From IMG/VR virus record IMGVR_UViG_3300008624_000009, positions 1 to 62,365 of that record: DNA of 62,365 bases. The stretch is one strand, 5' to 3'. Below are positions 28,656 to 55,091 of this stretch, piece by piece. The notes beneath the pieces were generated by a model. That model was not told the DNA's origin, did no database searches, and saw only the letters and a list, made by a program, of their open reading frames with translations. Source of the DNA: a virus. Numbering within the stretch: position 1 is the first letter of the stretch; each line of letters opens with the position of its first letter. Position numbers and translations under genes: made by a program.

Positions 28656-29768
28656 ATGTCAATACAAAAAGTATCAACTTCTATAATAGATGATAATGCT
28701 GTAACTGGGCCGAAAATTGCTATGGGTTCAGATGTTTCTGGTGATATTGTATATTATGATGGAACAGATTACGTTAGATTACCTAAAGGCACAGATGGAG
28801 ATACCTTAACAGTAGTGAATGGATTACCTTCATGGGGTAGTGGTAATGGTGGTGCATCATCATCAGATTGGGGAACTGGACAGTTTCAAGGAACACAATT
28901 TGGTTTTTGTACTCATGGTAATCATCCACAGGCAAATAACATACAAAAATATTCTTATACTAGTGATATAAATGCTGTTAATGTAGCTGATTTAACATAC
29001 GCTTGTCAAGCATCATCTGGAGGCAGAAGTCAAGATTATGGTTATGCAGCTGGTGGTGAAATGCAAGGACATCCAAATACCGATATAATTGATAAATATT
29101 CATTTACTTCTGGACAGAACTCTGATGATATTGGCAATCTTACTGTACCACGAGCTATGTGGGGTGGACAAGGTGCATCATCAGGACTTGCTGTTTATTG
29201 GCATGGTGGTCATGATGATCCTAATTGGAAGGTTATAGATAAACGAGTAACCTCATCTGATGGTGATGCGACGAGTGTCGGTGATTTATTCTCAGGAAGA
29301 TATGGTGCTGCAGGCGCTTCATCTAATACACATGGTTATGCGATGGGCGGTTGTCAGAACAACACTAATTTTCATAATTTAATAGAGCGTTATGCTTTTG
29401 CATCTGATGGAAATTCAGTAGATACAAATCGTGATTTGTACGAAGCTGTAAATTTGCCATTTGCTAGTAATTCGACAACACATATTTATGTGTCAGGTGG
29501 AATGTTGACTGCTAATAGTGCTTATTCTGAGAATGTTACAAAATTTGCTATTGATTCAAGTACTAATGCAGCAGATATTGGTAATCTTTCTGCTGGTGTA
29601 TCAGGTAATGGAGCGGGAACATCATCTACTACGCATGGATATTGTCATGGTGGTTATCCAAGTTACAGACAACTAATAGAAAAAATTAATTTTAGTACTG
29701 ATGGCAACGCTACAGGTGTAGGCGATCTTGACCTCGGCGTATCAAATAGTTCTGGTTCACAACACTAA
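28656..29768 (+). CDS. Six-repeat beta-propeller adhesin 1
   Basis: This adhesin has 370 residues. Residues 1-70 are an anchor of its own type (NAVTGPKIAMGSDVSGDIVY, then LPKGTDGDTLTVVNGLPSW). From about residue 85 there are six repeats with the core 'I-x-K-x-S-F-x-S-x-x-N...x-G-x-L' plus 'S-S-x-T-H-G-Y-x-x-G-G'. The repeat cores are IQKYSY, IDKYSF, IDKRVT, IERYAF, VTKFAI and IEKINF. This resembles Kelch-type blades and predicts a six-bladed propeller, probably a receptor-binding head. The C-terminus SSGSQH resembles that of other copies. GGAG lies rather far (14 bases) from the ATG. No enzyme residues were identified. Confidence 0.72.
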   Translation: MSIQKVSTSIIDDNAVTGPKIAMGSDVSGDIVYYDGTDYVRLPKGTDGDTLTVVNGLPSWGSGNGGASSSDWGTGQFQGTQFGFCTHGNHPQANNIQKYSYTSDINAVNVADLTYACQASSGGRSQDYGYAAGGEMQGHPNTDIIDKYSFTSGQNSDDIGNLTVPRAMWGGQGASSGLAVYWHGGHDDPNWKVIDKRVTSSDGDATSVGDLFSGRYGAAGASSNTHGYAMGGCQNNTNFHNLIERYAFASDGNSVDTNRDLYEAVNLPFASNSTTHIYVSGGMLTANSAYSENVTKFAIDSSTNAADIGNLSAGVSGNGAGTSSTTHGYCHGGYPSYRQLIEKINFSTDGNATGVGDLDLGVSNSSGSQH

Positions 29769-29781
29769 ACTATCAAACAAA

Positions 29782-31020
29782 ATGGCGTTACAAAAACTAA
29801 CATCTGGTATAATTCAAGATAATGCTGTAACTGGGTCTAAAATCTCCGTAGCAACTCCTTCAGTTGGAGATATTTTATATTATAATGGAACAGAATATAC
29901 TAAATTAGCTATTGGTGCAGAGGGAGAAGTTTTACAATTAGATGATGGTTTACCTGTTTGGGAAGTTAGTGATGCTGTACAAAGTGGTGCTATTCCTGGC
30001 TTTCCTTTTCATGGAAATCATTGGTTCTATGGTGGAAATTTTGGTAGTGTTACTGGTAATACAATACTATATCATTCTTTTACATCCGATAATCATGCAA
30101 TCGTAGGACATAATGCAGCAGTAGGTTCTACTGCGATGCCCGATATTAATTCAGCTATGTCTATGAGTAGTGCTACAGAAGCAGTTGTTACTAGTGGGTA
30201 TAGGGGTAGTGGTATTCTTGATGTTACAGAAAAATTTGCATATGCATCAGCAACAACTGCGATGAATGGTGCAACTGATATTTCTCAATCTTTTGGAACT
30301 CTTGGTTCACCTCCTATTTTTGGATCAGGTGGATATTCTTGTGAATCAGGAACTCATGGTTATATTGGTGGTGGGCGCTCAGGGGAGCTTAGTTCTTTTG
30401 GATATGCAGACCCTAATGCTTATGTTAGGAAATTTGAATTTGCAACTGGAAATGTAACAGTTGGGATTGCGACTCTTGAAGATGTCAAGACAGGACATTT
30501 AGCAGTTTCAAGTCAAACAGATGGTTTTTGGTGTGCTGGACATTATGGCCATGCGAATAGTCAAAACCCATATTCAACAAGGTCTATTGATAAATTTACT
30601 TTTGCATCTGAAAATATGCAACATAATTGGGATAGTTTATCAGATGATCGTATGAATGGTGCAACTGGGTCTAGTAGTACCACACATGGTTATATGTATG
30701 GTGGACATATTTGTTGTTACCAGCCGGGTGAAGGTACAGCAATAACTACGATAGAAAAATTTTCTTTTGCATCATCAGGACAGAAAACTAATCATGGTGA
30801 TATTTCAACAACAGTAGGTAGGTCTGGCCCGACTGGTGGACAAACACAAACTCATGGTTATGAAATTGCTGGTTATGAGTATGGTACAGGACTACTGCTT
30901 ACGACTGTTGATGGATATTCTTTTTCCAGTAATACAACAGCAACACAAACTGCCGATATTGGAATAACCGTTGATAATGCAGCTTGTGGATGTCAAGCTC
31001 CAACATTTTCATTTTCTTAG
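29782..31020 (+). CDS. Six-repeat beta-propeller adhesin 2
   Basis: This adhesin has 412 residues. The start at 29782 is chosen because it gives MALQKLTSGIIQDNAVTGSK, parallel to the start of the previous gene. A longer frame begins inside that gene. The short gap lacks a clear Shine-Dalgarno, so initiation may depend on coupling. The anchor is VGDILYYNGTEYTKLAIGAEGEVL (first half shown in the preceding paralogue as DIVYYDGTDYVRL). Six propeller repeats follow, with cores ILYHSF, TEKFAY, VRKFEF, IDKFTF, IEKFSF and VDGYSF. The C-terminus (CGCQAPTFSFS) departs from the G-x-Q ending of most copies. Confidence 0.72.
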   Translation: MALQKLTSGIIQDNAVTGSKISVATPSVGDILYYNGTEYTKLAIGAEGEVLQLDDGLPVWEVSDAVQSGAIPGFPFHGNHWFYGGNFGSVTGNTILYHSFTSDNHAIVGHNAAVGSTAMPDINSAMSMSSATEAVVTSGYRGSGILDVTEKFAYASATTAMNGATDISQSFGTLGSPPIFGSGGYSCESGTHGYIGGGRSGELSSFGYADPNAYVRKFEFATGNVTVGIATLEDVKTGHLAVSSQTDGFWCAGHYGHANSQNPYSTRSIDKFTFASENMQHNWDSLSDDRMNGATGSSSTTHGYMYGGHICCYQPGEGTAITTIEKFSFASSGQKTNHGDISTTVGRSGPTGGQTQTHGYEIAGYEYGTGLLLTTVDGYSFSSNTTATQTADIGITVDNAACGCQAPTFSFS

Positions 31021-31033
31021 AAAGAATAAAATA

Positions 31034-32419: not shown

Positions 32420-32446
32420 AAATAAAAATAAAACAAGGAGTAAATT

Positions 32447-37627: not shown

Positions 37628-37665
37628 ACAATAAAGATAAAAACATTCAAAAAAGGATATAGTCC

Positions 37666-38805
37666 ATGAGTGTAACGAAGGTAACTAACGATAATATAGT
37701 TGATATTTCTGCTGAAACAGTAAGTGGTACTTTACCAGCATTAAACGCAAGTGCAGTTTTAAATATGCCTACTGGTGAATCAATCATAGAATCAGCAAAT
37801 GATCCAGCTTTTGATTCCGATTTAGAATTAGGAAAAATGTGGTTGAATACGACAAACGGTGAAATGTTTGTTTGTACTGATGCTACGCCAGGGCTCAATG
37901 TTTGGAAAAATATTGCAGCTGGTTCTGACCATGTAGAGCCTCCTTTTCAATATGCGGGTACACAAACTGCTTGGATTGTTGGTGGTCATGCAAGTATGTC
38001 TAATGTCGATAATATGGAAACATTTTCATTAACTTCTGATGGTAATGCTACAATGTTGAGTGATGTTACCATGAATAATAATTATGCAGCTACTGGGACA
38101 AAATCAAATACTAGTGGTTATATTCTCGGTGGCGGGTGGCCTATTAATAGCGATATAGAAAAATATTCTTTTGAAAGTGGTGGAGATTCAACAAATGTAG
38201 GTACACTTAATACAGGAAGATATTGTATTGCTGGATTTTCAACAGGATCACATGGTTACGGTGTTTCTGGACTTCTAACTTCAACTGGTAGTGGAGCAGT
38301 AGATAAATTTTCATATAGTAATGAAGGCAGTGCTGTTGAGGTTGGTAATATGCCTTCTACGGGTTATGCTGCTGGAGTTACCGGCCCTGATAATGGTTAT
38401 ATCTATACAGGAAACGGAAATTCAGATATTGAAAAATATACTTATGCATCTGATAGTAGTGCTGTTCATTCTACTATGTATAATACAAGACATTCCCAAG
38501 CTTGTCATTCTACTTCAACTCATGGATATAGTTCTGGTGGGCATACTGGATCATGGGTATCTACTATTGATAAATTTTCATTTGCAAATACTAGTAATGC
38601 AGTTCATATTACGGATTTAGCATATGATAAATGTAGATGTCATGGTTATTCATCTGAAACACATGGATATACAAGTGGTGGATCTTCTAATCAACCTGGC
38701 GGTCCAGAAAGATTAGAAAAATTTTCATTTGCATCTGAAACTACTGCAACAATAATTGGTTCATGTATTAATAGAGATTCTTGGTCTAGTGGTACACAAT
38801 TTTAA
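37666..38805 (+). CDS. Six-repeat beta-propeller adhesin 3
   Basis: This adhesin has 379 residues. The anchor is VTKVTNDNIVDISAETVSGT with the collar LGKMWLNTTNGEMFVCTDAT at about 47-66 and a WKNIAAG end. Six blades follow, with cores METFSL, IEKYSF, VDKFSY, IEKYTY, IDKFSF and LEKFSF, and HGY..GG turns between them. The C-terminus is SSGTQF. The anchor is nearly identical in DNA to that of the next gene. It is the first gene of the seven-gene propeller run behind its late promoter. Kelch-type blade geometry is inferred from the repeat pattern. Confidence 0.75.
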   Translation: MSVTKVTNDNIVDISAETVSGTLPALNASAVLNMPTGESIIESANDPAFDSDLELGKMWLNTTNGEMFVCTDATPGLNVWKNIAAGSDHVEPPFQYAGTQTAWIVGGHASMSNVDNMETFSLTSDGNATMLSDVTMNNNYAATGTKSNTSGYILGGGWPINSDIEKYSFESGGDSTNVGTLNTGRYCIAGFSTGSHGYGVSGLLTSTGSGAVDKFSYSNEGSAVEVGNMPSTGYAAGVTGPDNGYIYTGNGNSDIEKYTYASDSSAVHSTMYNTRHSQACHSTSTHGYSSGGHTGSWVSTIDKFSFANTSNAVHITDLAYDKCRCHGYSSETHGYTSGGSSNQPGGPERLEKFSFASETTATIIGSCINRDSWSSGTQF

Positions 38806-38820
38806 AAAAGGAAATTACAA

Positions 38821-39966
38821 ATGTCTGTAACTAAAGTAACTAACGATAATATAGTTGATGTTTCTGCTGAATTAGTAAGTGGTACTTTACCAGCATTGGA
38901 TGCAAGTGCAGTTTTAAATATGAATACTGGTGAATCAATAACAGAATCAGCAAATGATCCAGCTATAGATTCTGATTTAGGATTAGGGAAATTGTGGTTG
39001 AATACTACAAATGGCGAAATGTTTGTTTGTACTGACGCAACGGCTGGACTTAATGTTTGGAAAAATATTGCAGCTGGTGCTGATCATGTAACACCCCCAT
39101 ACTCATTTCAAGGTACTCAGAGTGGATGGGTTACTGCTGGTAATGCTGCTGATAATACTTTTGAAACTTATTCTCTTGCTTCAAATAATAATGCAGTAGC
39201 ATCTGGCAGTACTTTAGGGACTGTTACAGAAGGCCCTGTTATTTCTAAATCTAAAACAGATATGTATGTCATGGGTGGTTATGTGCCTGGGGCACTTATT
39301 ACAGATGTCCAAAAAGTTTCATTTTCAACTGCTGCAGCATCATCTACTGTTAATAATTTAAATTCAGGAAAATATTGTGGTGCTGGTGCAAGTAGTGAAC
39401 TTAGAGGGTATCAAATCGCTGGTTGTGATGGTCATGACCATGTTGAATATCAAAGTCATGTAAACGACGGCGATAGTGCTGATATTGGTAATTTATATCA
39501 AAATGAAGCTGGATTTGCAACTTCTATGTCTGGGCCAACCGAAGTTCTTACTGATGTAGGTTGGTATAATCTTAATGCCGTTCATCATTTTTCATTTGCA
39601 AATGATGCTACTAAAACCAAACATTGTGATATGGTTGGGAATGGTTATGCACAAGGCGGTTGTTCATCAACCACACATGGTTATACTGCGTCTGCTCATC
39701 AATGGCGTACTACGATTAGGAAAGTAGGATTTGCTAGTGGTTCAACACAGATTAATCATCCTACTTTAGCAGTAACAAATCAAATGGGTTCTGCTGGTTG
39801 TGGTACTTGTTCAGAAACTCATGGTTATCAAAATGGGGGTTATCCTGATAACGGAAATAGTAATACTCATTATATTGAATCATGGAGTTTTGCTAGTGAA
39901 AGTGGAGTATCACATATTGGAAATCTCACACAAAAAAGAGCTTGGAGTGTAGGAGCACAAAATTAA
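38821..39966 (+). CDS. Six-repeat beta-propeller adhesin 4
   Basis: This adhesin has 381 residues. The anchor (VTKVTNDNIVDVSAELVSGT, LGKLWLNTTNGEMFVCTDAT) is almost the same as in the preceding gene, whereas the propeller differs in nearly every loop. Blade cores are FETYSL, VQKVSF, HVEYQS, VHHFSF, IRKVGF and IESWSF. The third blade is degenerate. A GCGTC Cys pair and YQNGGYPDNGN precede the last blade, and the C-terminus is SVGAQN. The leader AAAAAAGGAAATTACAA is shared with other copies. It looks like one half of a tandem-duplicate pair. Confidence 0.75.
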   Translation: MSVTKVTNDNIVDVSAELVSGTLPALDASAVLNMNTGESITESANDPAIDSDLGLGKLWLNTTNGEMFVCTDATAGLNVWKNIAAGADHVTPPYSFQGTQSGWVTAGNAADNTFETYSLASNNNAVASGSTLGTVTEGPVISKSKTDMYVMGGYVPGALITDVQKVSFSTAAASSTVNNLNSGKYCGAGASSELRGYQIAGCDGHDHVEYQSHVNDGDSADIGNLYQNEAGFATSMSGPTEVLTDVGWYNLNAVHHFSFANDATKTKHCDMVGNGYAQGGCSSTTHGYTASAHQWRTTIRKVGFASGSTQINHPTLAVTNQMGSAGCGTCSETHGYQNGGYPDNGNSNTHYIESWSFASESGVSHIGNLTQKRAWSVGAQN

Positions 39967-39994
39967 ATTTATAAAATAAAAAGGAAAATAAAAA

Positions 39995-41197
39995 ATGGCT
40001 GTAACCAAAATCACAAAAGAAAATATTAGTGATGTATCAGCAACTAAATTAACTGGTTCACTTCCTGCTATTGATGGACAATACATTACGAATGTACCAG
40101 CTGGTGAGGTAATGATAAAATCAGCAGCAAATCCAACTAATACCTCTAATCATTCTGCTGGAACCATGTGGGTAAATACAACAAATGGCGAAATCTTTGT
40201 TTGTACTGATGCTTCGACAGATGAAAATACTTGGACAAATGTTGGGCCTGGAACAACTGAAGTTGCAACAGTAGTGTGGACATATCAGGGAACACAATAT
40301 GGTTATGTAGTTGGGGGTTATCATGGTAGTCCCGGCCGTAATGATGAAATCGAAAGATATTCTTTTACTTCTAATAATGTTAATAATAATATTGGTAGTT
40401 TGATAGCACTTAATACAGTTCCTAGTGGACATAGTAGTACTGATTATGGATGGGTAACTGGTGGATGGAATGGTGCTGATATTACTACTATCGAAAAGTT
40501 TTCTTGGGCTTCATCAGCAAGTTCTGCTGCAACTGGAGCAACTGTTGGTGGTAATATGTCTTTGGCTACTGCAGCTAGTACTCAGACTGGGACTACTGCT
40601 TATTTAACAGGTGGATTTGATAATCCGAATGTTACAACTCATCATACTACTAGGAAATTTTCATTTGATTCAACAACAGATGCTGTTATCGTAGGAACTA
40701 TGGCATTTTCTGGTGGAATTTATCACAATATTGGTTGGTCTTCAGATACACATGGTTATTCTGCAGGCGGATATCCTTATGGGCGTTCTCCAAATACTGT
40801 TTCTCACATTGAAAAATTTGCATTTGCAACAGATACACAACAAGCTGTTGGTTGTGGAGATCTTGCTTCACCAGCTTCATATGTTTCTGGTTCAAACTCT
40901 ACAACGTATGGTTATCGGGATGGTGGATGGAATGGTGGTAGTTATACAGCAAATATGGAAGCTTATTCTTTTGCATCAGAAGGTACTGCTTCTACAATAG
41001 GTGTTCTTACTTATGCTCGTAATTGGTCTGGTGGCTCATCATCAACTACGCATGGTTATCATCATGGCGGTAGAAATACTAGTGGTACTTATATGACAGA
41101 TGTTCACCAATATTCATATGCATCACACGGTAATGCTAATAATATAATGAATGTAGCAACAGCACGTGGCGGAGTTCCTAGTAATATACAATTTTAA
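39995..41197 (+). CDS. Six-repeat beta-propeller adhesin 5
   Basis: This adhesin has 400 residues. The anchor is AVTKITKENISDVSATKLTG with the collar AGTMWVNTTNGEIFVCTDAS and NVGPGT. Six blades have cores IERYSF, IEKFSW, TRKFSF, IEKFAF, MEAYSF and VHQYSY. Turns carry many Gly, His, Trp and Asn residues (DYGWVTGGWNG, THGYHHGGRNTSG), typical of sugar-contacting loops, though no binding site is proven. The C-terminus is VPSNIQF. Its first 66 bases are identical to those of the next gene, marking a second tandem pair. Confidence 0.75.
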   Translation: MAVTKITKENISDVSATKLTGSLPAIDGQYITNVPAGEVMIKSAANPTNTSNHSAGTMWVNTTNGEIFVCTDASTDENTWTNVGPGTTEVATVVWTYQGTQYGYVVGGYHGSPGRNDEIERYSFTSNNVNNNIGSLIALNTVPSGHSSTDYGWVTGGWNGADITTIEKFSWASSASSAATGATVGGNMSLATAASTQTGTTAYLTGGFDNPNVTTHHTTRKFSFDSTTDAVIVGTMAFSGGIYHNIGWSSDTHGYSAGGYPYGRSPNTVSHIEKFAFATDTQQAVGCGDLASPASYVSGSNSTTYGYRDGGWNGGSYTANMEAYSFASEGTASTIGVLTYARNWSGGSSSTTHGYHHGGRNTSGTYMTDVHQYSYASHGNANNIMNVATARGGVPSNIQF

Positions 41198-41218
41198 TAA
41201 AATAAAAAGGAAAGTAAA

Positions 41219-42454
41219 ATGGCTGTAACCAAAATCACAAAAGAAAATATTAGTGATGTATCAGCAACTAAATTAACTGGTACGCTTCCTGCTATTGATG
41301 GACAATTTCTGTCTAATTTACCAGCTGGTGAGATAATGGTGAAATCAGCATCAAATCCAACTAATACTGCAAATAATTCTGCTGGAACCATGTGGATAAA
41401 TACTACAACTGGCGAAATGTTTGTTTGTACTGATGCGACAACAGATGCTAATGCTTGGACAAATGTTGGGCCCGGTGAAACAGAAGTTACAACATCATAT
41501 GCTCCTGCTGGTGAACAAGGAATGACATATGGATATGTGTGTGGATCACATACTGGAGCAGGGATGGATCCATTGGCAGCAATCGACAAATATGCTTTTG
41601 CAAGTGCTAGTAATGGAATTGCTAATGTTGGTTCTCTTTCTACGACCAGAAATGGGCCAAATACTAATCATTCATGGACTCATGCTTTTATATCAGCAGG
41701 TGCTCAAAATGGGAATGATTCAACCATAGAAACTTTTGCATTTGCTTCTGATGGTGCTTGTACTAATTGGGCTGACATGGCTGCCCATACTCAGTATGGT
41801 TATGGTTGTGGTTCTAGTGATAAAGATGGTGGATATGGTTATTTAAATGGGGGAAGAAGAACAAGTGGTAGTGGGCCATCATATACAACTAATAAAGTTT
41901 CTAGGTTTCCATTTGCATCTCAATCAAATGCTACTAATATTGGTACTTTGCAAATGTGGCAAGATTGCCCAGGCAATACAGTAGATAGGGTTAATGGTTA
42001 TGCTAATTATCATGGTGGTGCGGATGCGGGTTCTAATCATTTACCAAGTTATAATTATAGATATGCATTTGCATCAAGTGTTAGTTCATCTCAATTTTCT
42101 AATATGTTATCTGGAAATTGGCATTATTATGGAGAAGGAAGTCAAAGTGCTACTGATGGTTTTTTAGCTGGTGGATATGAACCATCCACAGCTAATTATA
42201 CAGCAGCTCAAATTCAACAACATTCATTTGCAAGTCTTTCTAATAGTGTTCTATGGGGTTCATTAACACATGGCAGATATGCTGCAGCGTGTCATTCATC
42301 ACCCGATCATGGATGGAGTGCTCATGGAATGGCAGGTTCGGGATGGAATCAAAATTGTCTGGATAAATTTTCATTTGCTTCATCTGGTAATTCTATTGAT
42401 GTGGGAGATATGTTATTTCAACCTAGATGTTATAGTCCTGGCGTTCACGTTTAA
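41219..42454 (+). CDS. Six-repeat beta-propeller adhesin 6
   Basis: This adhesin has 411 residues. It shares its anchor with the previous gene (AVTKITKENISDVSATKLTG; collar AGTMWINTTTGEMFVCTDAT) but has an independent head. Blade cores are IDKYAF, IETFAF, VSRFPF, YNYRYAF, IQQHSF and LDKFSF, with Trp/Gly/Ser-rich connecting loops (GNWHYYGEGSQSATDG). The C-terminus is SPGVHV. The fourth blade has lost the usual I-x-K core, while overall spacing keeps six units. It is transcribed in the seven-gene propeller run and its Shine-Dalgarno is AAAAAGGAAAG. Confidence 0.75.
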   Translation: MAVTKITKENISDVSATKLTGTLPAIDGQFLSNLPAGEIMVKSASNPTNTANNSAGTMWINTTTGEMFVCTDATTDANAWTNVGPGETEVTTSYAPAGEQGMTYGYVCGSHTGAGMDPLAAIDKYAFASASNGIANVGSLSTTRNGPNTNHSWTHAFISAGAQNGNDSTIETFAFASDGACTNWADMAAHTQYGYGCGSSDKDGGYGYLNGGRRTSGSGPSYTTNKVSRFPFASQSNATNIGTLQMWQDCPGNTVDRVNGYANYHGGADAGSNHLPSYNYRYAFASSVSSSQFSNMLSGNWHYYGEGSQSATDGFLAGGYEPSTANYTAAQIQQHSFASLSNSVLWGSLTHGRYAAACHSSPDHGWSAHGMAGSGWNQNCLDKFSFASSGNSIDVGDMLFQPRCYSPGVHV

Positions 42455-42478: not shown

Positions 42479-43672
42479 ATGTCGTCAACTAAAATACAAG
42501 ATACTGTTATAGAAAGTTTAGATGCTAGTAAACTTACAGGAACATTTGGAGCAATAGATGGAAGTAATTTAACAAATTTGCCTCCATCTGGTGAAGTTAT
42601 AACAAAAGATACAGTTAATCCAGAAGCAAATAGTAATCCAGCAACTGGTGTAGGTACACTTTGGTTAAATACGCAAGATGGTGAAATGTATTGTTGCACA
42701 GATGCTACTACTGATGCTAATGTTTGGAAAACTGTTAGTACTTCTTCTGGTTCAGGTGGTTCTGGTTCTCCCGCTCCGGCAAATGAATCTTTTGTGATGG
42801 GTGTAAGTGATGGATATATGTCTGGTGGAGAAAATGATGCAACAGGTATAGATGTTCACAAAGTATCTTTTTCAAGTGATGGTGATGCTGCAGATCATGG
42901 TGATTTAACAGAAGCAAGAAATGCTGTTTGTGGATCCTCATCTGGTACACATGGATATATGATGGGTGGCTATAAACCCGGCTATCCTAGTAGTGCATCA
43001 ACCAGAGTTGATAAATTTGCTTTTGCTAGTAATGCATTTGGTACACAAGTATCAAATTTGCCTTGGGGTGATTTTAATTGTGCTGGACATTCATCATGGG
43101 CAGAAAATAAAAGTTTTATGAGTGGTGGATCTTATTATGGTCATGCTGTTCTTTCTTGGGGTCATGCTACAGACAATTCGATAGGACATCCACTAAACTT
43201 ATCAGGTACTAAAAATGAACACGCAGGTACTAGTTCAGCTACACATGGTTATTTAGCCGGAGGCAATCCTAATAATGGTATGCAAAAATTTCAATTTGCA
43301 AGTGGATATGCTGTTTCTGCCGGTATTGGAAATTTACACACTTATGTTCAGGAAATGGGTTCTTCAAATTCAGCTGACTGGGGTTATACTCATGCTGGTC
43401 ATGATGGAAGTTGGAACAATACAGCTACAATTCAAAAACACTCTTTTGTTTCAGATGGAACTGTTGGATTTGTTGGCAATTTATCAGAACCAAAAAATGC
43501 AAGTGGTGGTTTTTCTTCAACAACATATGGTTATTGTGGAGGCGGAAAACCAGCTGCTGGTGGACATACTGATAGAATTGAAAAATATCCTTTTGCTTCA
43601 GATTCAGGTGCTAGTACTGTTGGCGTTTTAATGAATCAATTACAACATCTTCCTGCTGGAAATCAAGTTTAA
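42479..43672 (+). CDS. Six-repeat beta-propeller adhesin 7
   Basis: This adhesin has 397 residues. The anchor is more divergent (SSTKIQDTVIESLDASKLTG) but keeps the collar VGTLWLNTQDGEMYCCTDAT. A Gly/Ser/Pro linker (SSGSGGSGSPAPAN, about 90-104) separates anchor and head, which is longer than in other copies. Blade cores are VHKVSF, VDKFAF, VLSWGHA, MQKFQF, IQKHSF and IEKYPF, again six. The C-terminus is PAGNQV. It is the only member of the run without a near-identical neighbour, so its anchor may be older or of mixed origin. Confidence 0.74.
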   Translation: MSSTKIQDTVIESLDASKLTGTFGAIDGSNLTNLPPSGEVITKDTVNPEANSNPATGVGTLWLNTQDGEMYCCTDATTDANVWKTVSTSSGSGGSGSPAPANESFVMGVSDGYMSGGENDATGIDVHKVSFSSDGDAADHGDLTEARNAVCGSSSGTHGYMMGGYKPGYPSSASTRVDKFAFASNAFGTQVSNLPWGDFNCAGHSSWAENKSFMSGGSYYGHAVLSWGHATDNSIGHPLNLSGTKNEHAGTSSATHGYLAGGNPNNGMQKFQFASGYAVSAGIGNLHTYVQEMGSSNSADWGYTHAGHDGSWNNTATIQKHSFVSDGTVGFVGNLSEPKNASGGFSSTTYGYCGGGKPAAGGHTDRIEKYPFASDSGASTVGVLMNQLQHLPAGNQV

Positions 43673-43696
43673 ATTATAAAAAAAAGGAAATAACAA

Positions 43697-44941
43697 ATGG
43701 CTGTAACTAAAATAACAGATGAAAATATAGTTGATGTTGATGCTTCAAAACTAGTAGGTTCTTTTGGAACGCTGGATGGTTCTAATTTGACTAATGTAAC
43801 AGTAGGTAAAACAGTTACTAAAGCAACTAGTGATCCAACACAGGAAACAAATCCTGCTGATGGCGTAGGAACATTATATTTGAATACTTCTAGTGGTGAG
43901 CTATTCTGTTGTGTAGATGCTACTACGGATTTTAATGTTTGGAAAAATACTGGATTAGGTACAACAGGTACAATAAAATATGTAGTTCCGAACAATTATG
44001 TATATCAAGGAACACAGAATGGTTATTCATTGGGTGGGCATTTAGATTTTGGTGATATTCAAAAGTTTTCATTCACATCTAATGGAAACAGTACAACTAT
44101 TGGCCAATTAGCTTGGTCTACTTATAATGGTGTAGGAAGTCAGAGTGAAACAGATGGTTATAAATGTAAAGGAACAGATTGGGGTGGTACACCATCTTCA
44201 CGATATGATATTCAAATGTTTTCATTTGCTTCTGAAGGTAATTCAGTAGCTACTGGATTTTATGCTTTGGATGCGGGTACTGAATATTCACATGGTGGCT
44301 CTTCTAGTTCCACAGACGGAATCCATTGTTATTTTACTGGTGGTTGGAATAGTACTCTCGGTGGTGGTATTACTGCTATTCAAAGTTTTTCATTTCCTGC
44401 AACATCTGATGCTATTGATGTTGGTGATTTAAGTACAGATGCCAATTCTGGCTGGGGTTGGTCATATGATAATACCTATGGTTATCATGCTGGTGGTTGG
44501 GGAGATAGTAATGGGGGTGAAAATGTAAAAAGAATACAAAAATTTCCATTTGCTCAATCTGGTATAGCAGGTTCAGTTATCAGTTCTGAATTAACAGTTG
44601 CAAGACGGCATTGTAACGGACAAGGTATATGTTCAACAACTCATGGTTTCGTAGCGGGTGGAGATACTGGGAATAATAATGAAACAAATGTTATTGATAA
44701 AATGTCATTTGCAACAGAAGCAACTATGACAGATCATGGCGATTTAAATTATGCTGTTTCTTATATGGCTGGAAACGCAAGTTCAACAACTGATGGCTAT
44801 GTTTTTGGTGGACAGTATATGCCAAATTATACGAAAGTAGATCACATTCAAAAATTTGCATATTCGTCTAATACAACTGCTAGTGATATTGGAAATATAT
44901 CAGCGGGTCCTCTTAAATCAGTTGCAGGATGTCATAACTAA
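43697..44941 (+). CDS. Six-repeat beta-propeller adhesin 8
   Basis: This adhesin has 414 residues. The anchor is AVTKITDENIVDVDASKLVG with the collar VGTLYLNTSSGELFCCVDAT and NTGLGTTG. Six Kelch-like blades have cores IQKFSF, IQMFSF, IQSFSF, IQKFPF, IDKMSF and IQKFAY. The C-terminus is SVAGCHN. Its first approximately 275 bases are nearly identical to those of the next gene, yet the next gene carries the other blade class. It is transcribed in the propeller run and has the shared leader AAAAAAGGAAATAACAA. Confidence 0.75.
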   Translation: MAVTKITDENIVDVDASKLVGSFGTLDGSNLTNVTVGKTVTKATSDPTQETNPADGVGTLYLNTSSGELFCCVDATTDFNVWKNTGLGTTGTIKYVVPNNYVYQGTQNGYSLGGHLDFGDIQKFSFTSNGNSTTIGQLAWSTYNGVGSQSETDGYKCKGTDWGGTPSSRYDIQMFSFASEGNSVATGFYALDAGTEYSHGGSSSSTDGIHCYFTGGWNSTLGGGITAIQSFSFPATSDAIDVGDLSTDANSGWGWSYDNTYGYHAGGWGDSNGGENVKRIQKFPFAQSGIAGSVISSELTVARRHCNGQGICSTTHGFVAGGDTGNNNETNVIDKMSFATEATMTDHGDLNYAVSYMAGNASSTTDGYVFGGQYMPNYTKVDHIQKFAYSSNTTASDIGNISAGPLKSVAGCHN

Positions 44942-45240
44942 TAAGTCTTTAAAAAGGAAATAACAAATGTCTGTAACTAAAGTAACAGATGAAAATATAG
45001 TTGATGTTGATGCTTCAAAACTAGTAGGTTCTTTTGGAAATGTTGATGGTTCTAATTTGACTAATGTACCTCTTGGCAAATCAATTACTAAAACAACTAG
45101 TGATCCAACACAGGAAACAAATCCTGCTGATGGCGTAGGAACATTATATTTGAATACTTCTAGTGGTGAGTTATTCTGTTGCGTAGATGCTACTACGGAT
45201 TTTAATGTTTGGAAAAATACTGGATTAGGTACAACAGGTA
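43697..45240 (+). repeat. Duplicated anchor-coding block (43697-43970 and 44967-45240)
   Basis: Two direct copies of about 274 bases, 1270 bases apart, encode the anchors of adhesins 8 and 9. Long stretches are identical, for example the segment coding ASDPTQETNPADGVGTLYLN-type sequence. Shared bases extend upstream into the ribosome-binding leader. Similarity stops abruptly where the propellers begin. Confidence 0.8.
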
Positions 45241-46178
45241 AGATTGAATTTTCTTCTGGGCCACAATATTTTGGAAATAGAGGATTATTTTTTGGTGGTA
45301 ACTGGACTCAGATGACAACTGATGCTATTCAATATCTTAGTATACCATCATTAAGTAATACAACTACATTTGGTGATTTAAATAGGTATCATCAATCAAG
45401 GCCTGGATGTTTATCTAATGGAACACGAGCAGTTTGTGTTGCTGGTAATATGGATGGGCCGAATACAGGAATGGATTATGTTACAGTAGCAACACCTGCT
45501 ACTTCACAAGAGTTTGGAACATTTGCTTATGCTAATACTTATCTTGATGCTGTAAGTAATGGAACAAGAGGACTTATTACTCCTGGCGCATATGGTAGTG
45601 CTAGTATGCCTATGGAATATATTACTGTTCAAACTAATGGTAATTCTACAACTTTTGGTTCTGTTGTATTTAGTAATGGTTCATATGATCAGCATTGTGG
45701 ATGGATGCCAGTTGTTGGTAATGGTACTAGAGCAATAATGTTGGGTGGTTATCCACATACTCCAAATGGCCCTCTCATTGGTGGAATTATAAGTTATGTA
45801 GTTATAGCTACTCAGAGTAATGCATCTCAATTTGGTACTTTAAATCAATATAGATACGGTGCAGCAGGATTAAATGATAGAACTTATGGTGTATGTTGGG
45901 GTGGACAATATTATGATAATGGTTATATTCCAGCTGGAAATGAATGGATAACAATGGCAACAAATGGTAATGCACTAGTATTTGGTGGAGTAACTGTGAG
46001 CCATCAAAACGATACAGGTGCCTGTTCAAATTCAGAAAGAGGTGTAATACAAATGTATACTAATAATGAAATTGAATATATGACAATGGCAAATCCAAAT
46101 GCTAATGCTGTTGTATTTGGACAAAATTCTATATCATCTAATCAAGCTGGTTGTGGTGCAACATCAGGTAATGCATAA
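44967..46178 (+). CDS. Six-repeat propeller adhesin 9, second blade class
   Basis: This adhesin has 403 residues. The anchor is almost identical to that of the previous gene (SVTKVTDENIVDVDASKLVG; collar VGTLYLNTSSGELFCCVDAT). From about residue 95 it changes to blades of a different class, with the core 'M-E-Y-I-T-V-x-T-x-x-N-x-x-x-F-G' and turns 'S-N-G-T-R-A-V'. Cores are IQYLSI, MDYVTV, MEYITV, ISYVVI, NEWITM and IEYMTM, again six. The C-terminus is ATSGNA. It resembles the 53520 protein in blade type. The junction between anchor and head is sharp and gives the best single example of head replacement in this window. Confidence 0.75.
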   Translation: MSVTKVTDENIVDVDASKLVGSFGNVDGSNLTNVPLGKSITKTTSDPTQETNPADGVGTLYLNTSSGELFCCVDATTDFNVWKNTGLGTTGKIEFSSGPQYFGNRGLFFGGNWTQMTTDAIQYLSIPSLSNTTTFGDLNRYHQSRPGCLSNGTRAVCVAGNMDGPNTGMDYVTVATPATSQEFGTFAYANTYLDAVSNGTRGLITPGAYGSASMPMEYITVQTNGNSTTFGSVVFSNGSYDQHCGWMPVVGNGTRAIMLGGYPHTPNGPLIGGIISYVVIATQSNASQFGTLNQYRYGAAGLNDRTYGVCWGGQYYDNGYIPAGNEWITMATNGNALVFGGVTVSHQNDTGACSNSERGVIQMYTNNEIEYMTMANPNANAVVFGQNSISSNQAGCGATSGNA

Positions 46179-46255: not shown

Positions 46256-47092
46256 ATGAGTGAAGAAAAAAGTGAATCAAAAGATTTAGTTGTAAATACA
46301 TTTAAAAATGATTCTCTTGCAACAAAGTATGAATCATATGGTGGAAAATCATTAGTTCAAAATTTACAAAATGCTGAACTTGCAGTAAATAAGGTTAAAT
46401 ATACAGAACGCATTTGGGATAGGTCAAGAAGTCAATTTATGTTGAAACACTTGACTTGTTCACAAGCTGATGATTGGACAAGACTACGACAAGTCTCTGC
46501 TGAGATGGCAAGTAAACGAATGGCTCTTAATGAAGCAAAATTTGGTTACATGGAAGCAGTTACAAAAACTAAAATCAAAAGACAAAAAATTGATCAAGAG
46601 GATGATCCTCTTAAAAGAGAATTACTTGAAATTCAAGTTGCTAGAATGGAATCAGGTAATGCAGAGCTTTTGGTTAAAGTTGAAGGTGCTTTAAAAGAAA
46701 TTGAAACTCTTGGGCAAATGCATGACCAGTTGAAAGATATTATTGGTGATGTTTCTGAGGAAGAATTTGAAAAAGCTCAAGTTTTATCACATATTAAACG
46801 TGCTATGACACAAGCAATTCGTGAAGTTAGGGAACGGGGAACTATTGGTTGTGGTAATCAGGAATATTTAGAACAAGTTGGTGTTTCTGTTACAAATGCA
46901 CATAAGGAAATAAGAGAGTTTTTAGCACAAGAAGCAAGTACGGGTGTTGCTAATACTTCATTATTACACTCTTTTGTTAATGATTTTGCAGATAGGCATG
47001 AAGGAGTAGCAATACAACAAGCAGACTTTTTAGGATTTTCATTAGATGCAAATAAATTATTAACGTACACACCAGAAGAAGAAAACCAATAA
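46256..47092 (+). CDS. Helical 278-residue protein A (paralogue of 55137)
   Basis: The predicted protein is almost all alpha-helix with long charged heptad stretches (about 60-190). The same length and a matching middle occur in the gene at 55137: 'SKR.AL.EA.F', 'VE.A.KEI...', 'E.DFE'-type and 'EY.EQ.G' motifs. It contains LSHIKRAMTQAIREVRERG at about 180-198. There is no signal peptide, membrane segment or catalytic motif. AGGAG precedes ATG 46256 and twin late promoters sit just upstream. The function is unknown. Its placement after adhesin arrays suggests an assembly or anchoring role for them. Confidence 0.65.
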   Translation: MSEEKSESKDLVVNTFKNDSLATKYESYGGKSLVQNLQNAELAVNKVKYTERIWDRSRSQFMLKHLTCSQADDWTRLRQVSAEMASKRMALNEAKFGYMEAVTKTKIKRQKIDQEDDPLKRELLEIQVARMESGNAELLVKVEGALKEIETLGQMHDQLKDIIGDVSEEEFEKAQVLSHIKRAMTQAIREVRERGTIGCGNQEYLEQVGVSVTNAHKEIREFLAQEASTGVANTSLLHSFVNDFADRHEGVAIQQADFLGFSLDANKLLTYTPEEENQ

Positions 47093-47108: not shown

Positions 47109-48860
47109 ATGTATATAGGAAAACCATACCAAAGTACCGCTGTACCAAGTAAAACATTTGATACTTTTACTGGTAACGGATCAATAACAACATTAACATT
47201 ATCACAAACACCATCTTCTGTTAATAATGTGTTTGTATATTTTGATGGTGTTGCTCAAAGACCAACTACGGATTATACCTTAGCTGGAAATACATTAACA
47301 TTTTCTTCTGCTCCTTCTAATGGTGTTGTTGTTTTTGCAATAGTAGGTGGTGGAGAACATATTTCTACACCTATGGGTGGTTCAATAGGTGCTGAAGATA
47401 TTGTTGATGCTGCTATTACTAATGCAAAAATAACATCTGTTGATGCAAGTAAACTTAGTGGTAGTGCATTTCCAGCAATTAATGGTGCTAATATTTCAAA
47501 TCAATTTGAACAAGCTAGTCCTTTTATAGAATCTACATCTGATCCTGCTATAGATAGTAATTTGACATTAGGAACAGCATGGCTTAATAAAACGACTGGC
47601 AATATATATATTTGTACGGATGCTACGACAAACGAAAATAGTTGGCAAAGTGTCGGTGATGGTTCTGGACATATATTAAAAAATCAACTACCTGGCGAAG
47701 CTACTGATGATGTACCTAATATAGAAGAAAGTACAACATTGAGTCATACCTTTACTGGTGGTACTGATGCAGACGGTACTGTTACACACTATGTCGTAGA
47801 TCAAATCTCTGATCCTATTTTATCAGTTGCTGCTTCAGAAGTTGCTGCTGGTTCAGCACATGAATTTACTGCTTCAGCAGTTAGTGGTGATACGAATGTT
47901 ACATTTCGTGTAAGGACAAAGGATGATGCTGGTATGTATAGTCCCGGCATAACTGTTACCGTAACCGTAGAAGATTATGTACCTTTTTGGTCAAATTATG
48001 CTCAAATGCACGCATATAGTGCTGGTGGCTGTTGGGGACACGATAAAATTGAAAGATTTTCAGTATTAACGGATGCAAATAATGCTGAGATTGGTACACT
48101 TTCTCTTGCGGTGGAATATGGAACGGGTACAAATAGTATATCACATGGATATATTTACGGTGGGGTAAATGATTGGGCTAATGGGTCTGAAAGTGTTGTG
48201 CAGAAAGTTCAATTGGCTGCATCAGCGAGTTCTTCTAATATATCTAATATGGTGAAACATTCTTATCAGCATGGTGCTGCTAATGAAGAAAATTATGGAT
48301 GGAAGTTTGGTGGTGATAGTACTCCTGATCCAGATTGGCGGATTCTTGAAAAACAATCTTATGCTTCTGATTCAAATATGACTAGTCCAGGCAATATGGT
48401 TGGTGGTGATCGTGGTAATATGAATGATGGAGTTTCTGGCCCTACACATGGATTTGCTATTGGTAATAATTATTATTCTTGTATTGATAAATGGTCTTAT
48501 GCTTCTGGTACAGATGCAGCAGATCATGGTGATAATTCTGAATATAGGTCAGGTGTTGCTACACAATGGACTACAACTCATGGTTATTTAAGTGGTGGAT
48601 ATAAATTAGGTGTTGGATCTAAAACCCATGTTGATAAATTTTCTTTTGCTAGTAATTCAACTGCTACACAAGTAGGAAATATATCGAGTTACAGATATGG
48701 TAATCTTCAAGGATGGTCTACACAAACTCATGCATATACTGGTACTGGTTATGGTGGTTATAAAACAGTTGATAAATTTGCATTTGCAAGTGAAGGAACA
48801 GCAGCACATTGTTCAGACTTACTTAATAATACAGTAGGTGCATCTAGTTTTCAAAGATAA
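47109..48860 (+). CDS. Six-repeat beta-propeller adhesin 10 with Ig-like insert
   Basis: This adhesin has 583 residues. Residues 1-80 are MYIGKPYQSTAVPSKTFDTF plus one beta repeat (VYFDGVAQRPTTDYTLAGN). Then come AITNAKITSVDASKLSG and the collar LGTAWLNKTTGNIYICTDAT. Residues about 195-290 form an extra Ig/cadherin-like domain (ESTTLSHTFTGGTDADGTVT, VTFRVRTKDDAGMYS). The propeller has six blades with cores IERFSV, VQKVQL, LEKQSY, IDKWSY, VDKFSF and VDKFAF, and the C-terminus is VGASSFQR. It combines three modules seen separately elsewhere and is the longest propeller protein here. Confidence 0.75.
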   Translation: MYIGKPYQSTAVPSKTFDTFTGNGSITTLTLSQTPSSVNNVFVYFDGVAQRPTTDYTLAGNTLTFSSAPSNGVVVFAIVGGGEHISTPMGGSIGAEDIVDAAITNAKITSVDASKLSGSAFPAINGANISNQFEQASPFIESTSDPAIDSNLTLGTAWLNKTTGNIYICTDATTNENSWQSVGDGSGHILKNQLPGEATDDVPNIEESTTLSHTFTGGTDADGTVTHYVVDQISDPILSVAASEVAAGSAHEFTASAVSGDTNVTFRVRTKDDAGMYSPGITVTVTVEDYVPFWSNYAQMHAYSAGGCWGHDKIERFSVLTDANNAEIGTLSLAVEYGTGTNSISHGYIYGGVNDWANGSESVVQKVQLAASASSSNISNMVKHSYQHGAANEENYGWKFGGDSTPDPDWRILEKQSYASDSNMTSPGNMVGGDRGNMNDGVSGPTHGFAIGNNYYSCIDKWSYASGTDAADHGDNSEYRSGVATQWTTTHGYLSGGYKLGVGSKTHVDKFSFASNSTATQVGNISSYRYGNLQGWSTQTHAYTGTGYGGYKTVDKFAFASEGTAAHCSDLLNNTVGASSFQR

Positions 48861-51908: not shown

Positions 51909-51917
51909 AATAAACTC

Positions 51918-51945
51918 ATAGCACATGGAATTGTCCATGTGCTAT
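51918..51945 (+). terminator. Perfect 12-bp hairpin, possible terminator or RNA stabiliser
   Basis: Arms 51918-51929 and 51934-51945 (ATAGCACATGGA and its complement) enclose the loop ATTG. It starts ten bases after the stop codon of the giant fibre and ends 18 bases before a late promoter. There is no U-tract, so it may be a weak terminator or a 3'-end stabilising or processing signal. It separates two transcripts. Confidence 0.6.
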
Positions 51946-51962
51946 AAACCTAAATCTAAATA

Positions 51963-51970
51963 TATAAATA
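51963..51970 (+). promoter_or_regulatory. T4-type late promoter
   Basis: An exact TATAAATA lies 31 bases before adhesin 11, just after the hairpin at 51918-51945. It would drive the pair of propeller genes at 52001 and 53520 and probably the helical protein at 55137. Confidence 0.78.
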
Positions 51971-52000
51971 AATAACAATGCTAATAGATAGGAAAAAAAT

Positions 52001-53494
52001 ATGTCATATATAGGAAAAGATGTAAAAAGTGTATCAACTGCTAACATAACAGTTGATTCAATGACGGGAGATGGTTCTGCTAATACATTAGCATTATCGC
52101 TAACGATGGTTGATTCAATATATGATGTAGCAGTTTATATAGATGGAATTGCTAGAACTCCAGGCATAGATTATACATTATCAAATACAACAATAACTTT
52201 TGCAACACCCCCTAGTGTTGATCAAAAAGTTGTAGCTATATCAACAGGAGATGCACTAAAGGATAATGTTATAGATAACTCATTTACGGTTGATAGTATT
52301 AAAGATAATTCTATTACAGATGCAAAAGTTGTTGGATTAGATGCAAGTAAATTAACTGGGGCATTACCCGCAGTAGATGGTTCTGCAATAACTGGCATAG
52401 ATGGTACGATTGCTATAATACAACAATCCTATAAACCTACTTATAATGCTGATGTTGGAGAAGGAGCTATATGGCTAAATACTTCAACTGGCCAATTTTA
52501 TGTTTGTACTAATGGTACTCCTGGCAACAATACTTGGGTCAATGCTGGAACTGGTACTGGACTTATTGAGTACGTGCCTTGGTCTTATACAGGAACATTG
52601 TCTGCACATACATTTGGTGGATATATTGCTCATTATGGTACTGATATGATACAAAAGTGGAATTTTGCTTCAAATTCTGGTGCATCACATAAAGGTAGTA
52701 TTGAAGGAGCTGGGGGTCGTGGAACAGATGGTCCGATTGGTGTTTCTGGTGCTACACATGGGTACGTTTGTGGTGGTCATAGTGCTGATACTGGTGGTTA
52801 TGTATCAAATATATCTAAAGTTGCTCATGCTACAGAATCAGAAAGTTCTGTTAATACTGGTGCTAATTTGTCAAATTCTAGGTCTAATACTGATGGAATT
52901 GGATCAGAAATTGCTGGTTATGTTTTTAATGCTTATCCATATACAACTGCTATTGATAAATTTTCTTTTGCTAGTGATGGTAGTTGTTCTGCTGTGGCTA
53001 ACACAGGTGTACCTGCTCATGGGACTCAAGGACAAGCTTCAACAACTCATGGATATTGTTCTGGTGGGCATGATTGGGTAGCTGGAGCTAAAATAACAAC
53101 AATACAAAAATTTGATTTTGCATCAGATTCGGATTCAACATCAGTAGGAGATATAGCAGGTGTTGGTAGATATATGGGAGCAGGATGTAATTCTGTAACT
53201 CATGGTTATGTAGCTGGTGGTCAGAAGGGTAATCCTTCTGCAAGAGTGTCAACTATTGATCAATTTTCTTTTGCTAATGAAAACAATTCAGTAGGACACG
53301 GTGATTTAGCAGGTATAAGATATGGAAATGCTGGACATTCTTCAACTACTGATGGATATAGTTCGGTTGGTGGAACCGCATATAATGGTAAACAAAATGA
53401 TATTCACAAATTTTCCTTTTCATCTAATACAACCGCAGTAGGACATGGCAACGCTGGTATGTCCGTTTATATGGCTGGTGGACACCAATATTAA
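52001..53494 (+). CDS. Six-repeat beta-propeller adhesin 11
   Basis: This adhesin has 497 residues. Residues 1-85 are MSYIGKDVKSVSTANITVDS plus one beta repeat (AVYIDGIARTPGIDYTLSNT). Shaft units follow (SFTVDSIKDNSITDAKVVGL), then the collar EGAIWLNTSTGQFYVCTNGT. Six Kelch-like blades have cores IQKWNF, ISKVAH, IDKFSF, IQKFDF, IDQFSF and IHKFSF. The C-terminus is MAGGHQY. The anchor is longer than in adhesins 3-9 and like that of adhesins 10 and 12, so the family has two anchor lengths. The next gene is its tandem partner with a different blade class. Confidence 0.75.
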   Translation: MSYIGKDVKSVSTANITVDSMTGDGSANTLALSLTMVDSIYDVAVYIDGIARTPGIDYTLSNTTITFATPPSVDQKVVAISTGDALKDNVIDNSFTVDSIKDNSITDAKVVGLDASKLTGALPAVDGSAITGIDGTIAIIQQSYKPTYNADVGEGAIWLNTSTGQFYVCTNGTPGNNTWVNAGTGTGLIEYVPWSYTGTLSAHTFGGYIAHYGTDMIQKWNFASNSGASHKGSIEGAGGRGTDGPIGVSGATHGYVCGGHSADTGGYVSNISKVAHATESESSVNTGANLSNSRSNTDGIGSEIAGYVFNAYPYTTAIDKFSFASDGSCSAVANTGVPAHGTQGQASTTHGYCSGGHDWVAGAKITTIQKFDFASDSDSTSVGDIAGVGRYMGAGCNSVTHGYVAGGQKGNPSARVSTIDQFSFANENNSVGHGDLAGIRYGNAGHSSTTDGYSSVGGTAYNGKQNDIHKFSFSSNTTAVGHGNAGMSVYMAGGHQY

Positions 53495-53519
53495 ACTATT
53501 TAATCAAAGGAAATAACAA

Positions 53520-55091
53520 ATGGGATTTATAGGAAATAACTTAAAAAATGTATTAACAGAAGCAAAATCTGTTGATACAATGACGGGTGATGGTTCTACT
53601 ACTACAATAACATTATCTAAAACGCCCGGTTCTGTTAATAATACTACTGTTTTTTGGGATGGTGTATTTAAAACTCCAATTACAGATTATACTTTATCAG
53701 GAACTACAATTACATTTGGAACAGCACCAGCACAAGATGTTCATGTAATGGTGTTTAGTGGTAATGATAGTTTAGTTGAAAGTCCAGAAAATATTACTGT
53801 TACATCTAGTATGATTGCTGATGGTTCTATTACATCTGATAAAATTGCTACGGTAGATATAAATAAATTAGATGGAACATTACCCGCTGGAGTAGATGCA
53901 TCAGCATTAACAGGAATGCCCGATCTTCCTAGTTTATATACAACAGTTTCTGCTTCTAGTCCAACAAGGACATCTAATCCTACGGGTGGCGTAGGAACAA
54001 TGTGGATCAATTCAACAGATGGAGAACTTTTTGTATGTGTTGATGCTGGAACAGATAATAATGAATGGCGGAATGTTGGAGAGTCGCAAGAATCAGATAA
54101 TGTTGCACCAGCACCACAATATCTTGGTGATATAGGAATGTGGATGGGTGGATATACTGGTACTGGTTTTTATGGTACTGATAATACTCATTCTATGGTT
54201 ATACCAACCCAAGCCAATACAGTACTTTTTGGAAGTACAACTTATGGTCATGGTGATATGCCCGGTGTGTGTTCAAATGGAACACGAGCAGTTGTTGCTG
54301 GTGGTTGGAATAATCATAATGGTTATGGTAGAACTCCTGTAATAGAGTATGTTACAATCGCAACGCCAGGTAATGCTACTTGGTTTGGCAATCTTACTTG
54401 GGGAGGGCAAACATCTTGGGGTACTCAAAATATTCATGGAACAGGAAATGGAACAAGAGGTATATACAATACTGGAGCATATGGTGGTTCAAGTGGAGCT
54501 CCATCACCTAGAAATATGCAATATATAACGGTTGAAACACCAGCTAATGCTCAAGATTTTACTTCTGATAATATGACTTATGGAGGTGGACAACACCGAT
54601 GGCAAGCTATATGTAGTAATGGTGTTAGATGTGTTATATGGAATGGTTATTATTATGGTGATGAAACTAATTCTGGTAACTTGACAGGCCCAATTAGATA
54701 CATTAATATGGACACCACAAGTAATTCAATATCATTTGGAAATCAAGCAGGAAGGGGACTTGGTGGAGTTGGACTTAATGATAGAACATATGGTGTTTCT
54801 TATCATAACAAGAATGGTTGGACACAATGTGAACCTGCTGAGTACCTTACTATGGCTACTGAAGCTAATGCACAATTTTTTGCTAATCAGTATTCAGATA
54901 GATATTTATCACCTGCTGTTTGCACAGATACAGCAAGTCGTGCAGTTATTAAGTCTGGATTTTCAGCAGGTTGGGGTGGAGTATCAGGTACAGCAGAAAT
55001 GGTACAATGTAATAAACCTGATCAAAATGCTGTATTTTGGTTAAGTCTCGGTACTCGTAATCATCCAGGCGGAGCATCTGGAAACGGATAA
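53520..55091 (+). CDS. Six-repeat propeller adhesin 12, second blade class
   Basis: This adhesin has 523 residues. The anchor (MGFIGNNLKNVLTEAKSVDT, a beta repeat with VFWDGVFKTPITDYTLSG, a KI shaft unit, and the collar VGTMWINSTDGELFVCVDAG) parallels that of adhesin 11. The head is of the 'IEYVTIATPGNATWFG / SNGTRAV' class, as in adhesin 9. Cores are THSMVI, IEYVTI, MQYITV, IRYINM, AEYLTM and AEMVQC, six units. The C-terminus is GASGNG. The leader AAAGGAAATAACAA matches those of the 37.7-46.2 kb run. It is a second instance of adjacent genes with like anchors and unlike heads. Confidence 0.75.
   Translation: MGFIGNNLKNVLTEAKSVDTMTGDGSTTTITLSKTPGSVNNTTVFWDGVFKTPITDYTLSGTTITFGTAPAQDVHVMVFSGNDSLVESPENITVTSSMIADGSITSDKIATVDINKLDGTLPAGVDASALTGMPDLPSLYTTVSASSPTRTSNPTGGVGTMWINSTDGELFVCVDAGTDNNEWRNVGESQESDNVAPAPQYLGDIGMWMGGYTGTGFYGTDNTHSMVIPTQANTVLFGSTTYGHGDMPGVCSNGTRAVVAGGWNNHNGYGRTPVIEYVTIATPGNATWFGNLTWGGQTSWGTQNIHGTGNGTRGIYNTGAYGGSSGAPSPRNMQYITVETPANAQDFTSDNMTYGGGQHRWQAICSNGVRCVIWNGYYYGDETNSGNLTGPIRYINMDTTSNSISFGNQAGRGLGGVGLNDRTYGVSYHNKNGWTQCEPAEYLTMATEANAQFFANQYSDRYLSPAVCTDTASRAVIKSGFSAGWGGVSGTAEMVQCNKPDQNAVFWLSLGTRNHPGGASGNG

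Follow-up and report, generated by a model that had tools for sequence, protein, structure and literature searches.

A putative repertoire of six-bladed propeller adhesins encoded by an uncultured T4-like myovirus

Introduction

The window analysed here is a stretch of viral DNA of 62,365 bp, which constitutes a single IMG/VR virus record (IMGVR_UViG_3300008624_000009) and carries an array of twelve genes whose products end in a head built from degenerate repeats (Table 1). Judging from its gene content, the source, a marine virus, is an uncultured T4-like myovirus, a phage with a contractile tail. It is probable that the array belongs to the host-recognition cluster of this phage and encodes at least twelve short tail-fibre or baseplate adhesins, in which an N-terminal anchor bears a C-terminal propeller, and that the propellers serve as swappable receptor-binding heads. 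All twelve open reading frames (ORFs) listed in an initial annotation of the sequence were confirmed; the ATG at 29782 lies inside an ORF whose listed start is a TTG at 29728. The array that this annotation assigned to one phage is real, but its source is one 62-kb fragment of a phage genome, for which twelve propeller genes are a minimum. No end repeats were found in the 62,365-bp window. A second contig, 3300009370_000098, is the same virus (99.995% identity) and offers no variation.

Fold and repeat number of the heads

The head of adhesin 11 (the gene starting at 52001) was modelled with AlphaFold2 using an alignment of 111 heads. The model has a mean pLDDT of 92.9 and a pTM of 0.92. It is composed of 24 strands (6 x 4), which in Kelch naming run b-c-d, then five full a-b-c-d sets, then a final a, the ring being closed by the C-terminal strand. 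This is the closed six-bladed propeller that the initial annotation had anticipated, and Foldseek places it with the Kelch type. It matches KLHL12, Keap1, and SAKe6 with TM-scores of 0.82–0.87 when normalised by query length and as high as 0.93 when normalised by target length (rmsd ~2 Å; E-values down to 3e-18). The sequence profile of the heads also matches KLHL12 (E 1e-8); identity to solved Kelch members is only 12–17%. In each of the six blades of the 111-sequence alignment, GY-x-x-GG is nearly invariant (90% or more). The Pfam Kelch models fail to match nearly all heads, with Kelch_1 reaching an E-value of 0.01 in just 2 of 111 members. The nearest viral models are uncharacterised environmental phage proteins, a Kelch protein of the Burkholderia phage BcepSaruman, and Synechococcus phage S-SKS1. 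Matches of relatives to DUF4907, THDPS_M, and NucA_NucB in Pfam were rejected as repeat-driven noise, unrelated to the propeller.

The repeat number was counted with two kinds of profile. A single-repeat profile trained on the window detects six repeats in all but one of the ten mainstream proteins. The exception is adhesin 7 (42479), where it gives five, as repeat 3 is degenerate yet visible in the alignment. One surplus match in adhesin 6 (41219), of 17 residues and 0.9 bits, is noise. The second profile covers the whole head in 296 positions and was built from other phages only, with no window sequence. Each of the ten mainstream heads gives one continuous alignment with it (E 1e-33 to 1e-72), spanning profile positions 3–15 to 283–294. 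Because the ten heads align in one piece with a window-free profile, their six repeats are in register and not a product of chance.

The same count is found in relatives, which here comprise related IMG/VR loci and two phage records, with genes cut by a locus end excluded. Of 239 whole genes, 221 contain exactly six units, and the median period is 48 residues. The exceptions mostly have four or five detected units, and further, diverged ones may be present. Clear exceptions are the longer ORFs of S-SKS1, which have nine near-identical units, and proteins of about 950 residues in a single-cell marine virus, which have 8–12. Counts taken by profile thus do not drift apart within the main family, and six is, on this evidence, a true invariant of it, both in the window and in relatives. 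For the main family, computation establishes both the fold and the six-fold count, directly by the model of adhesin 11 and by profile for nine further heads.

The initial annotation had given every copy six repeats and a shared core motif (I-x-K-F-S-F-x-S and what follows it). The count holds for ten heads by profile or alignment, and for adhesins 9 and 12 (44967 and 53520) it stands by eye only, six units being readable in the alignment of each. The motif does not extend to these two, whose repeat reads I-x-Y-[VI]-T-[VIM]-A-T ... N-G-T-R-[AG]-x. Their joint profile matches the main family with an hhalign probability of 93% (E 3.6e-7). On sequence grounds, the divergent pair is likely to share the propeller fold and its six-fold count.

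Anchors and heads evolve separately

Computation shows that anchors and heads in the window evolve separately, with sharp DNA breakpoints at their junction. Three adjacent gene pairs have amino acid identities of 88, 80, and 86% in the anchor and 35, 28, and 27%, respectively, in the head. In the third pair (adhesins 8 and 9), the two heads even come from different subfamilies. At the DNA level, adjacent genes share an anchor of ~300 bp at 84–94% identity and have strongly diverged heads. Identity drops from mostly 75–100% to background at the anchor–head border, near 37930, 40260, and 43970.

Several genes also carry tail-fibre N-termini, namely phrog_18673 in adhesins 10 and 12 (47109 and 53520) and phrog_10330 in adhesin 11, and some DNA repeats are common to the array and the fibre genes at 27114 and 48945. 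Glycine-rich (Gly_rich_2) heads are found on the same anchor in a related contig, L149, and in the cultured SAR11 phage HTVC103P. In T-even phages, a glycine-rich domain is a typical feature of the gp38 adhesin. On L149, three genes with the window-type anchor and Gly_rich_2 heads (L149:6398-9949) lie upstream of a homologue of 46256. The corresponding place in the window, before 46256, holds seven propellers instead.

Head exchange between sister phages

Comparison of sister phages shows, again by computation, that they keep the anchor and replace the head. Contigs L013 and L030, which come from different samples, share non-propeller genes at 98–100% identity and have eight syntenic propeller genes, with anchors 83–100% identical. 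Two of the eight heads are 98–100% identical. The other six are just 49–68% identical, which is the level seen between different heads within one genome. Near the start of each exchanged head, DNA identity falls from about 97% to 50–70%, and it recovers at the gene end. In another pair (L034 and L035, core 88–95%), heads on matched anchors are 52–71% identical. A third contig, L020, contains two of the L013 heads at 100% identity, and for these two, at least, this speaks against an artefact of assembly.

Genomic position and possible host

T4-like markers in the window include baseplate wedge proteins, among them gp8-like and gp6-position proteins, a VrlC-position protein at 14795-20407 (phrog_358), and the neck and tail genes gp13, gp14, and gp3 at 59.6–62.0 kb. 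These gene names follow general knowledge of the T4-like family. The propeller array occupies the stretch between VrlC and gp13/gp14/gp3, which places it at the T4-like host-recognition cluster. In pelagimyophages and cyanomyophages, the stretch between VrlC and gp14 is termed the ‘host recognition cluster’ (PMC7029224). Other adhesin types occur in the same cluster of the window: three proteins with an Mtd N-terminal domain (Mtd_N), one that weakly matches C1q and a T7 fibre, a lectin of the ConA type, and a single glycine-rich protein.

As to the host, different genes point in different directions. The baseplate wedge protein at 8096 is closest to that of Pelagibacter phage HTVC008M (38%), followed by Methylophilales phage Melnitz and then Pelagibacter phage Mosig. 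The closest relatives of gp3 are cyanophages.

Proposed function of the array

Variation among the heads is concentrated in particular loops. In the 111-head alignment, mean column entropy is 1.0–1.3 bits in the strands, 1.31 in the c-d loops, 1.87 in a-b, 2.51 in b-c, and 2.60 in d-a. The standard deviation of loop length is highest in b-c (2.43) and minimal in c-d (0.25). In Kelch domains, the b-c and d-a loops share one face, which is the ligand-binding face in Keap1. A single variable face carried by a conserved scaffold is the pattern expected of a head that binds receptors.

Attachment of the proteins to tail fibres or the baseplate is well supported, and receptor binding by the heads is strongly suggested. 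The adhesin reading proposed in the initial annotation gains support from the fibre-type N-termini, the location in the cluster, loop variation on one face, and head replacement between sisters; its receptor-binding part stays an inference. Mechanistically, the propeller face with the b-c and d-a loops would bind surface receptors, such as glycans or outer-membrane proteins, and the anchor would dock on the fibre or baseplate network. The recombination that swaps heads could be guided by near-identical anchor DNA and gene ends. A lineage would thereby keep a stock of heads, and cassette exchange would change its tropism. AAGGA-like (ribosome-binding-like) sites precede most array genes and, since most have their own, co-expression of the array would fit.

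A more specific proposal, which can be advanced only tentatively, is that the array is a recombination-driven adhesin library, in which anchors guide whole-head swaps between lineages and perhaps between positions, with many heads per particle. Such a library would be unlike diversity-generating retroelements or invertible cassettes. No reverse transcriptase match was found among the window ORFs scanned, a subset of the ORFs on a genome fragment, and whole-head replacement at 49–68% identity is an unusual pattern for a diversity-generating retroelement. An inverting cassette was judged unlikely, as all array genes lie on the + strand (no inverted-repeat search was made).

A number of points weigh against reading the array as a cluster of exchangeable adhesins. 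The adhesin role is a prediction from sequence and model, and the array is seen in part of a genome. The high-confidence model covers one of the twelve heads, that of adhesin 11. A model of adhesin 5 (39995), made from nine paralogues, had a pLDDT of 59 and a TM-score of 0.16 despite an E-value of 1e-6. It matches Kelch domains by local pattern and does not superpose on them, and it was not used as evidence of closure. Taken alone, adhesin 12 is not significant against the window-free main profile. Placing the b-c and d-a loops on one face rests on known Kelch topology. Lastly, a search for close sisters of the window phage that carry different heads at the same positions gave none, the relatives that turned up being more distant, and exchange in this phage is therefore inferred from the anchor–head breakpoints in its own genes.

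Among the alternatives, the one that survives best, although it appears unlikely, is that each virion receives just one or a few of the heads, the others being a reservoir of recombination donors. Adjacent genes have anchor DNA in common to a degree that suits homologous exchange, and the heads of sister phages differ at fixed positions. However, there is no evident sign of silence, as most of the genes keep their frame intact and have an AAGGA-like site. Moreover, when the sister pair was compared, no donor for a replaced head turned up at any other place in the partner contig, both contigs being partial.

It is less probable still that the propellers are virion decorations or tail whiskers, with a structural role or weak general stickiness, that do not determine tropism. 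Phage CBB has whisker-like tail hairs, for which the genes were not identified, and encodes Kelch proteins, of which CBB_552 is present in the virion (PMC5259590). Against this, the window anchors are fibre-type domains within a host-recognition cluster. Heads are replaced where anchors and neighbours are kept, and it is particular loops that vary, which points to selection on recognition.

Glycan-cutting enzymes, galactose oxidase-like or sialidase-like, are a very improbable explanation: phages do have enzymatic propellers such as endosialidases (PMC4901313), and a few structural matches to viral models are named galactose oxidase, but outside the repeated structural core (G, Y, GG, I-x-K-F, F, S) the 111 heads share no residue that is nearly invariant, and therefore no single conserved catalytic set, and the best structural matches are binding domains (KLHL12 and Keap1) rather than enzymes.

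Comparison with known systems

The Kelch propellers KLHL12 and Keap1 and the designed SAKe6 have six four-stranded blades in common with the window heads, and a sequence relationship is detectable. They differ in that the window propellers are encoded in phage gene arrays and joined to fibre anchors. A further parallel is with the jumbo-phage Kelch proteins (CBB_550, CBB_552, and CBB_554, as well as those of BcepSaruman and PS119XW), where several Kelch propellers are encoded by one myophage (PMC5259590). CBB, however, has three such genes, no anchor–head cassettes have been described in it, and its match to the adhesin 11 head is weak (BFVD rank 50, E 9e-8). The pelagimyophage and cyanomyophage cluster resembles the array in its VrlC–gp14 position, its hypervariability, and its fibre genes; the domains reported from it are YHYH, concanavalin A, collagen, Mtd, and YadA, with no mention of Kelch or propeller domains (PMC7029224).

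In the number of receptor-binding proteins, there is a parallel with the Klebsiella phages PhiK64-1 (eleven depolymerases) and RaK2, which co-encode about ten, several with conserved N-termini and with middle and C-terminal regions that differ between related phages (PMC6872550). Those proteins are depolymerases on gp10-like branches, whereas the window heads belong to one propeller family. Staphylococcus phage phi11 Gp45 likewise has a beta-propeller in a receptor-binding protein (PMC4901313), but it has five blades, is a single gene, and forms a trimer with additional tower domains. S-SKS1 has a related repeat in several genes at one locus. It was set apart as a different system, since its longer ORFs carry nine near-identical repeats and some frames are broken, and its products are thus not single six-bladed heads. 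At this locus (L003:47-6192), the propeller-type repeats number up to nine per ORF, several frames are short or broken, and the overall look is homogenised, not diversified.

In a limited search of the open-access literature, no paper was found on arrays of six-bladed propeller adhesins with head exchange. For the abundant uncultured marine T4-like phages, host range has largely gone unexplained, and many fibre genes bear the annotation ‘unknown’. The present analysis gives PHROG 19111 a predicted fold and a likely role, and indicates that a phage contig can draw as many as about thirteen heads from one fold. Through the anchor–head cassettes, it also becomes possible to ask in concrete terms how recognition modules are kept and exchanged by phages. 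If the adhesin library is real, it would diversify tropism in a way that sets it apart from diversity-generating retroelements and from invertible fibre cassettes.

Distribution among phages

All 26 records checked carry copies, with 2–13 matching places each. Where the array borders were checked, the position is T4-like, with a VrlC-family protein before the array (L020) and gp14 or gp3 after it (L034, L064, and L071). The corresponding PHROGs family, 19111, is listed as ‘unknown function’ and is matched by 106 of 111 relatives. When two heads were used as tblastn queries against 50,697 annotated phage records, S-SKS1 and the single-cell marine virus were the only matches. With a full-length propeller query, HTVC103P and HTVC104P were also matched, via the anchor alone.

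In many relatives, a gene fusing a ferrochelatase-type and a 2OG-Fe(II) oxygenase-type domain (about 417–460 residues) lies among or just downstream of the propellers; no match to it was found among the window ORFs scanned. The only matches from a scan of genome contigs (L083 and L084) are head relatives, with 57–62% identity to the query, on two short contigs of a gammaproteobacterial metagenome-assembled genome. These are perhaps phage contigs binned with that genome.

Features of the array and its surroundings

Table 1. Putative propeller adhesin genes and associated features (window coordinates unless a contig is given; E-values labelled ‘profile’ refer to the window-free whole-head profile)
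Feature	Position	Strand	Details
Propeller adhesin 1	28656..29768	+	anchor 28656-28880, six-repeat head 28881-29765; profile E 9e-72
Propeller adhesin 2	29782..31020	+	head 29998-31017; start uncertain; profile E 1.5e-33
Propeller adhesin 3	37666..38805	+	anchor 37666-37938, head 37939-38802; profile E 8e-57; anchor 88% aa identical to adhesin 4
Propeller adhesin 4	38821..39966	+	anchor 38821-39093, head 39094-39963; profile E 2e-39
Propeller adhesin 5	39995..41197	+	anchor 39995-40270, head 40271-41194; profile E 4e-55; model low-confidence
Propeller adhesin 6	41219..42454	+	anchor 41219-41500, head 41501-42451; profile E 3e-45; anchor 80% aa identical to adhesin 5
Propeller adhesin 7	42479..43672	+	anchor 42479-42769, head 42770-43669, repeat 3 degenerate; profile E 7e-57
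Propeller adhesin 8	43697..44941	+	anchor 43697-43990, head 43991-44938; profile E 5e-53
Propeller adhesin 9, divergent head subfamily	44967..46178	+	anchor 44967-45257, head 45258-46175; anchor 86%, head 27% aa identical to adhesin 8; profile E 3e-9 as two partial matches
Helical protein closing sub-array 1	46256..47092	+	paralogue of 55137, 26% identity; phrog_1409 E 8e-5
Propeller adhesin 10, extra tail-fibre N-terminal domain	47109..48860	+	head 47985-48857; phrog_18673 tail fibre E 3e-8; profile E 2e-46
Propeller adhesin 11	52001..53494	+	head 52580-53491, modelled closed six-bladed propeller
Propeller adhesin 12, divergent head subfamily	53520..55091	+	head 54099-55088, 38% identical to 44967 head; N-terminal phrog_18673 E 0.002
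Helical protein closing sub-array 2	55137..55973	+	paralogue of 46256
Anchor DNA repeat	43681..43979	+	93-94% identical to 44951-45249; identity stops at anchor/head border
Anchor DNA repeat	37646..37945	+	86% identical to 38801-39100
Anchor DNA repeat	39959..40258	+	84% identical to 41183-41482
Ferrochelatase/2OG-Fe(II) fusion genes	L017:10894-12168, L034:10286-11584, L053:6883-8151, L071:14776-16077, L064:15179-16558, L052:7119-8369, L030:9021-10310		

The two helical proteins (46256-47092 and 55137-55973) are paralogues, and one stands directly after each propeller sub-array; they are possibly a fibre connector or chaperone. Within the fibre gene 30971-32419 there is a perfect 54-bp tandem duplication (31866-31973). 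Upstream of the baseplate genes, positions 3001-4467 encode a RimK-like ATP-grasp ligase (Pfam PF08443, E 6e-34).

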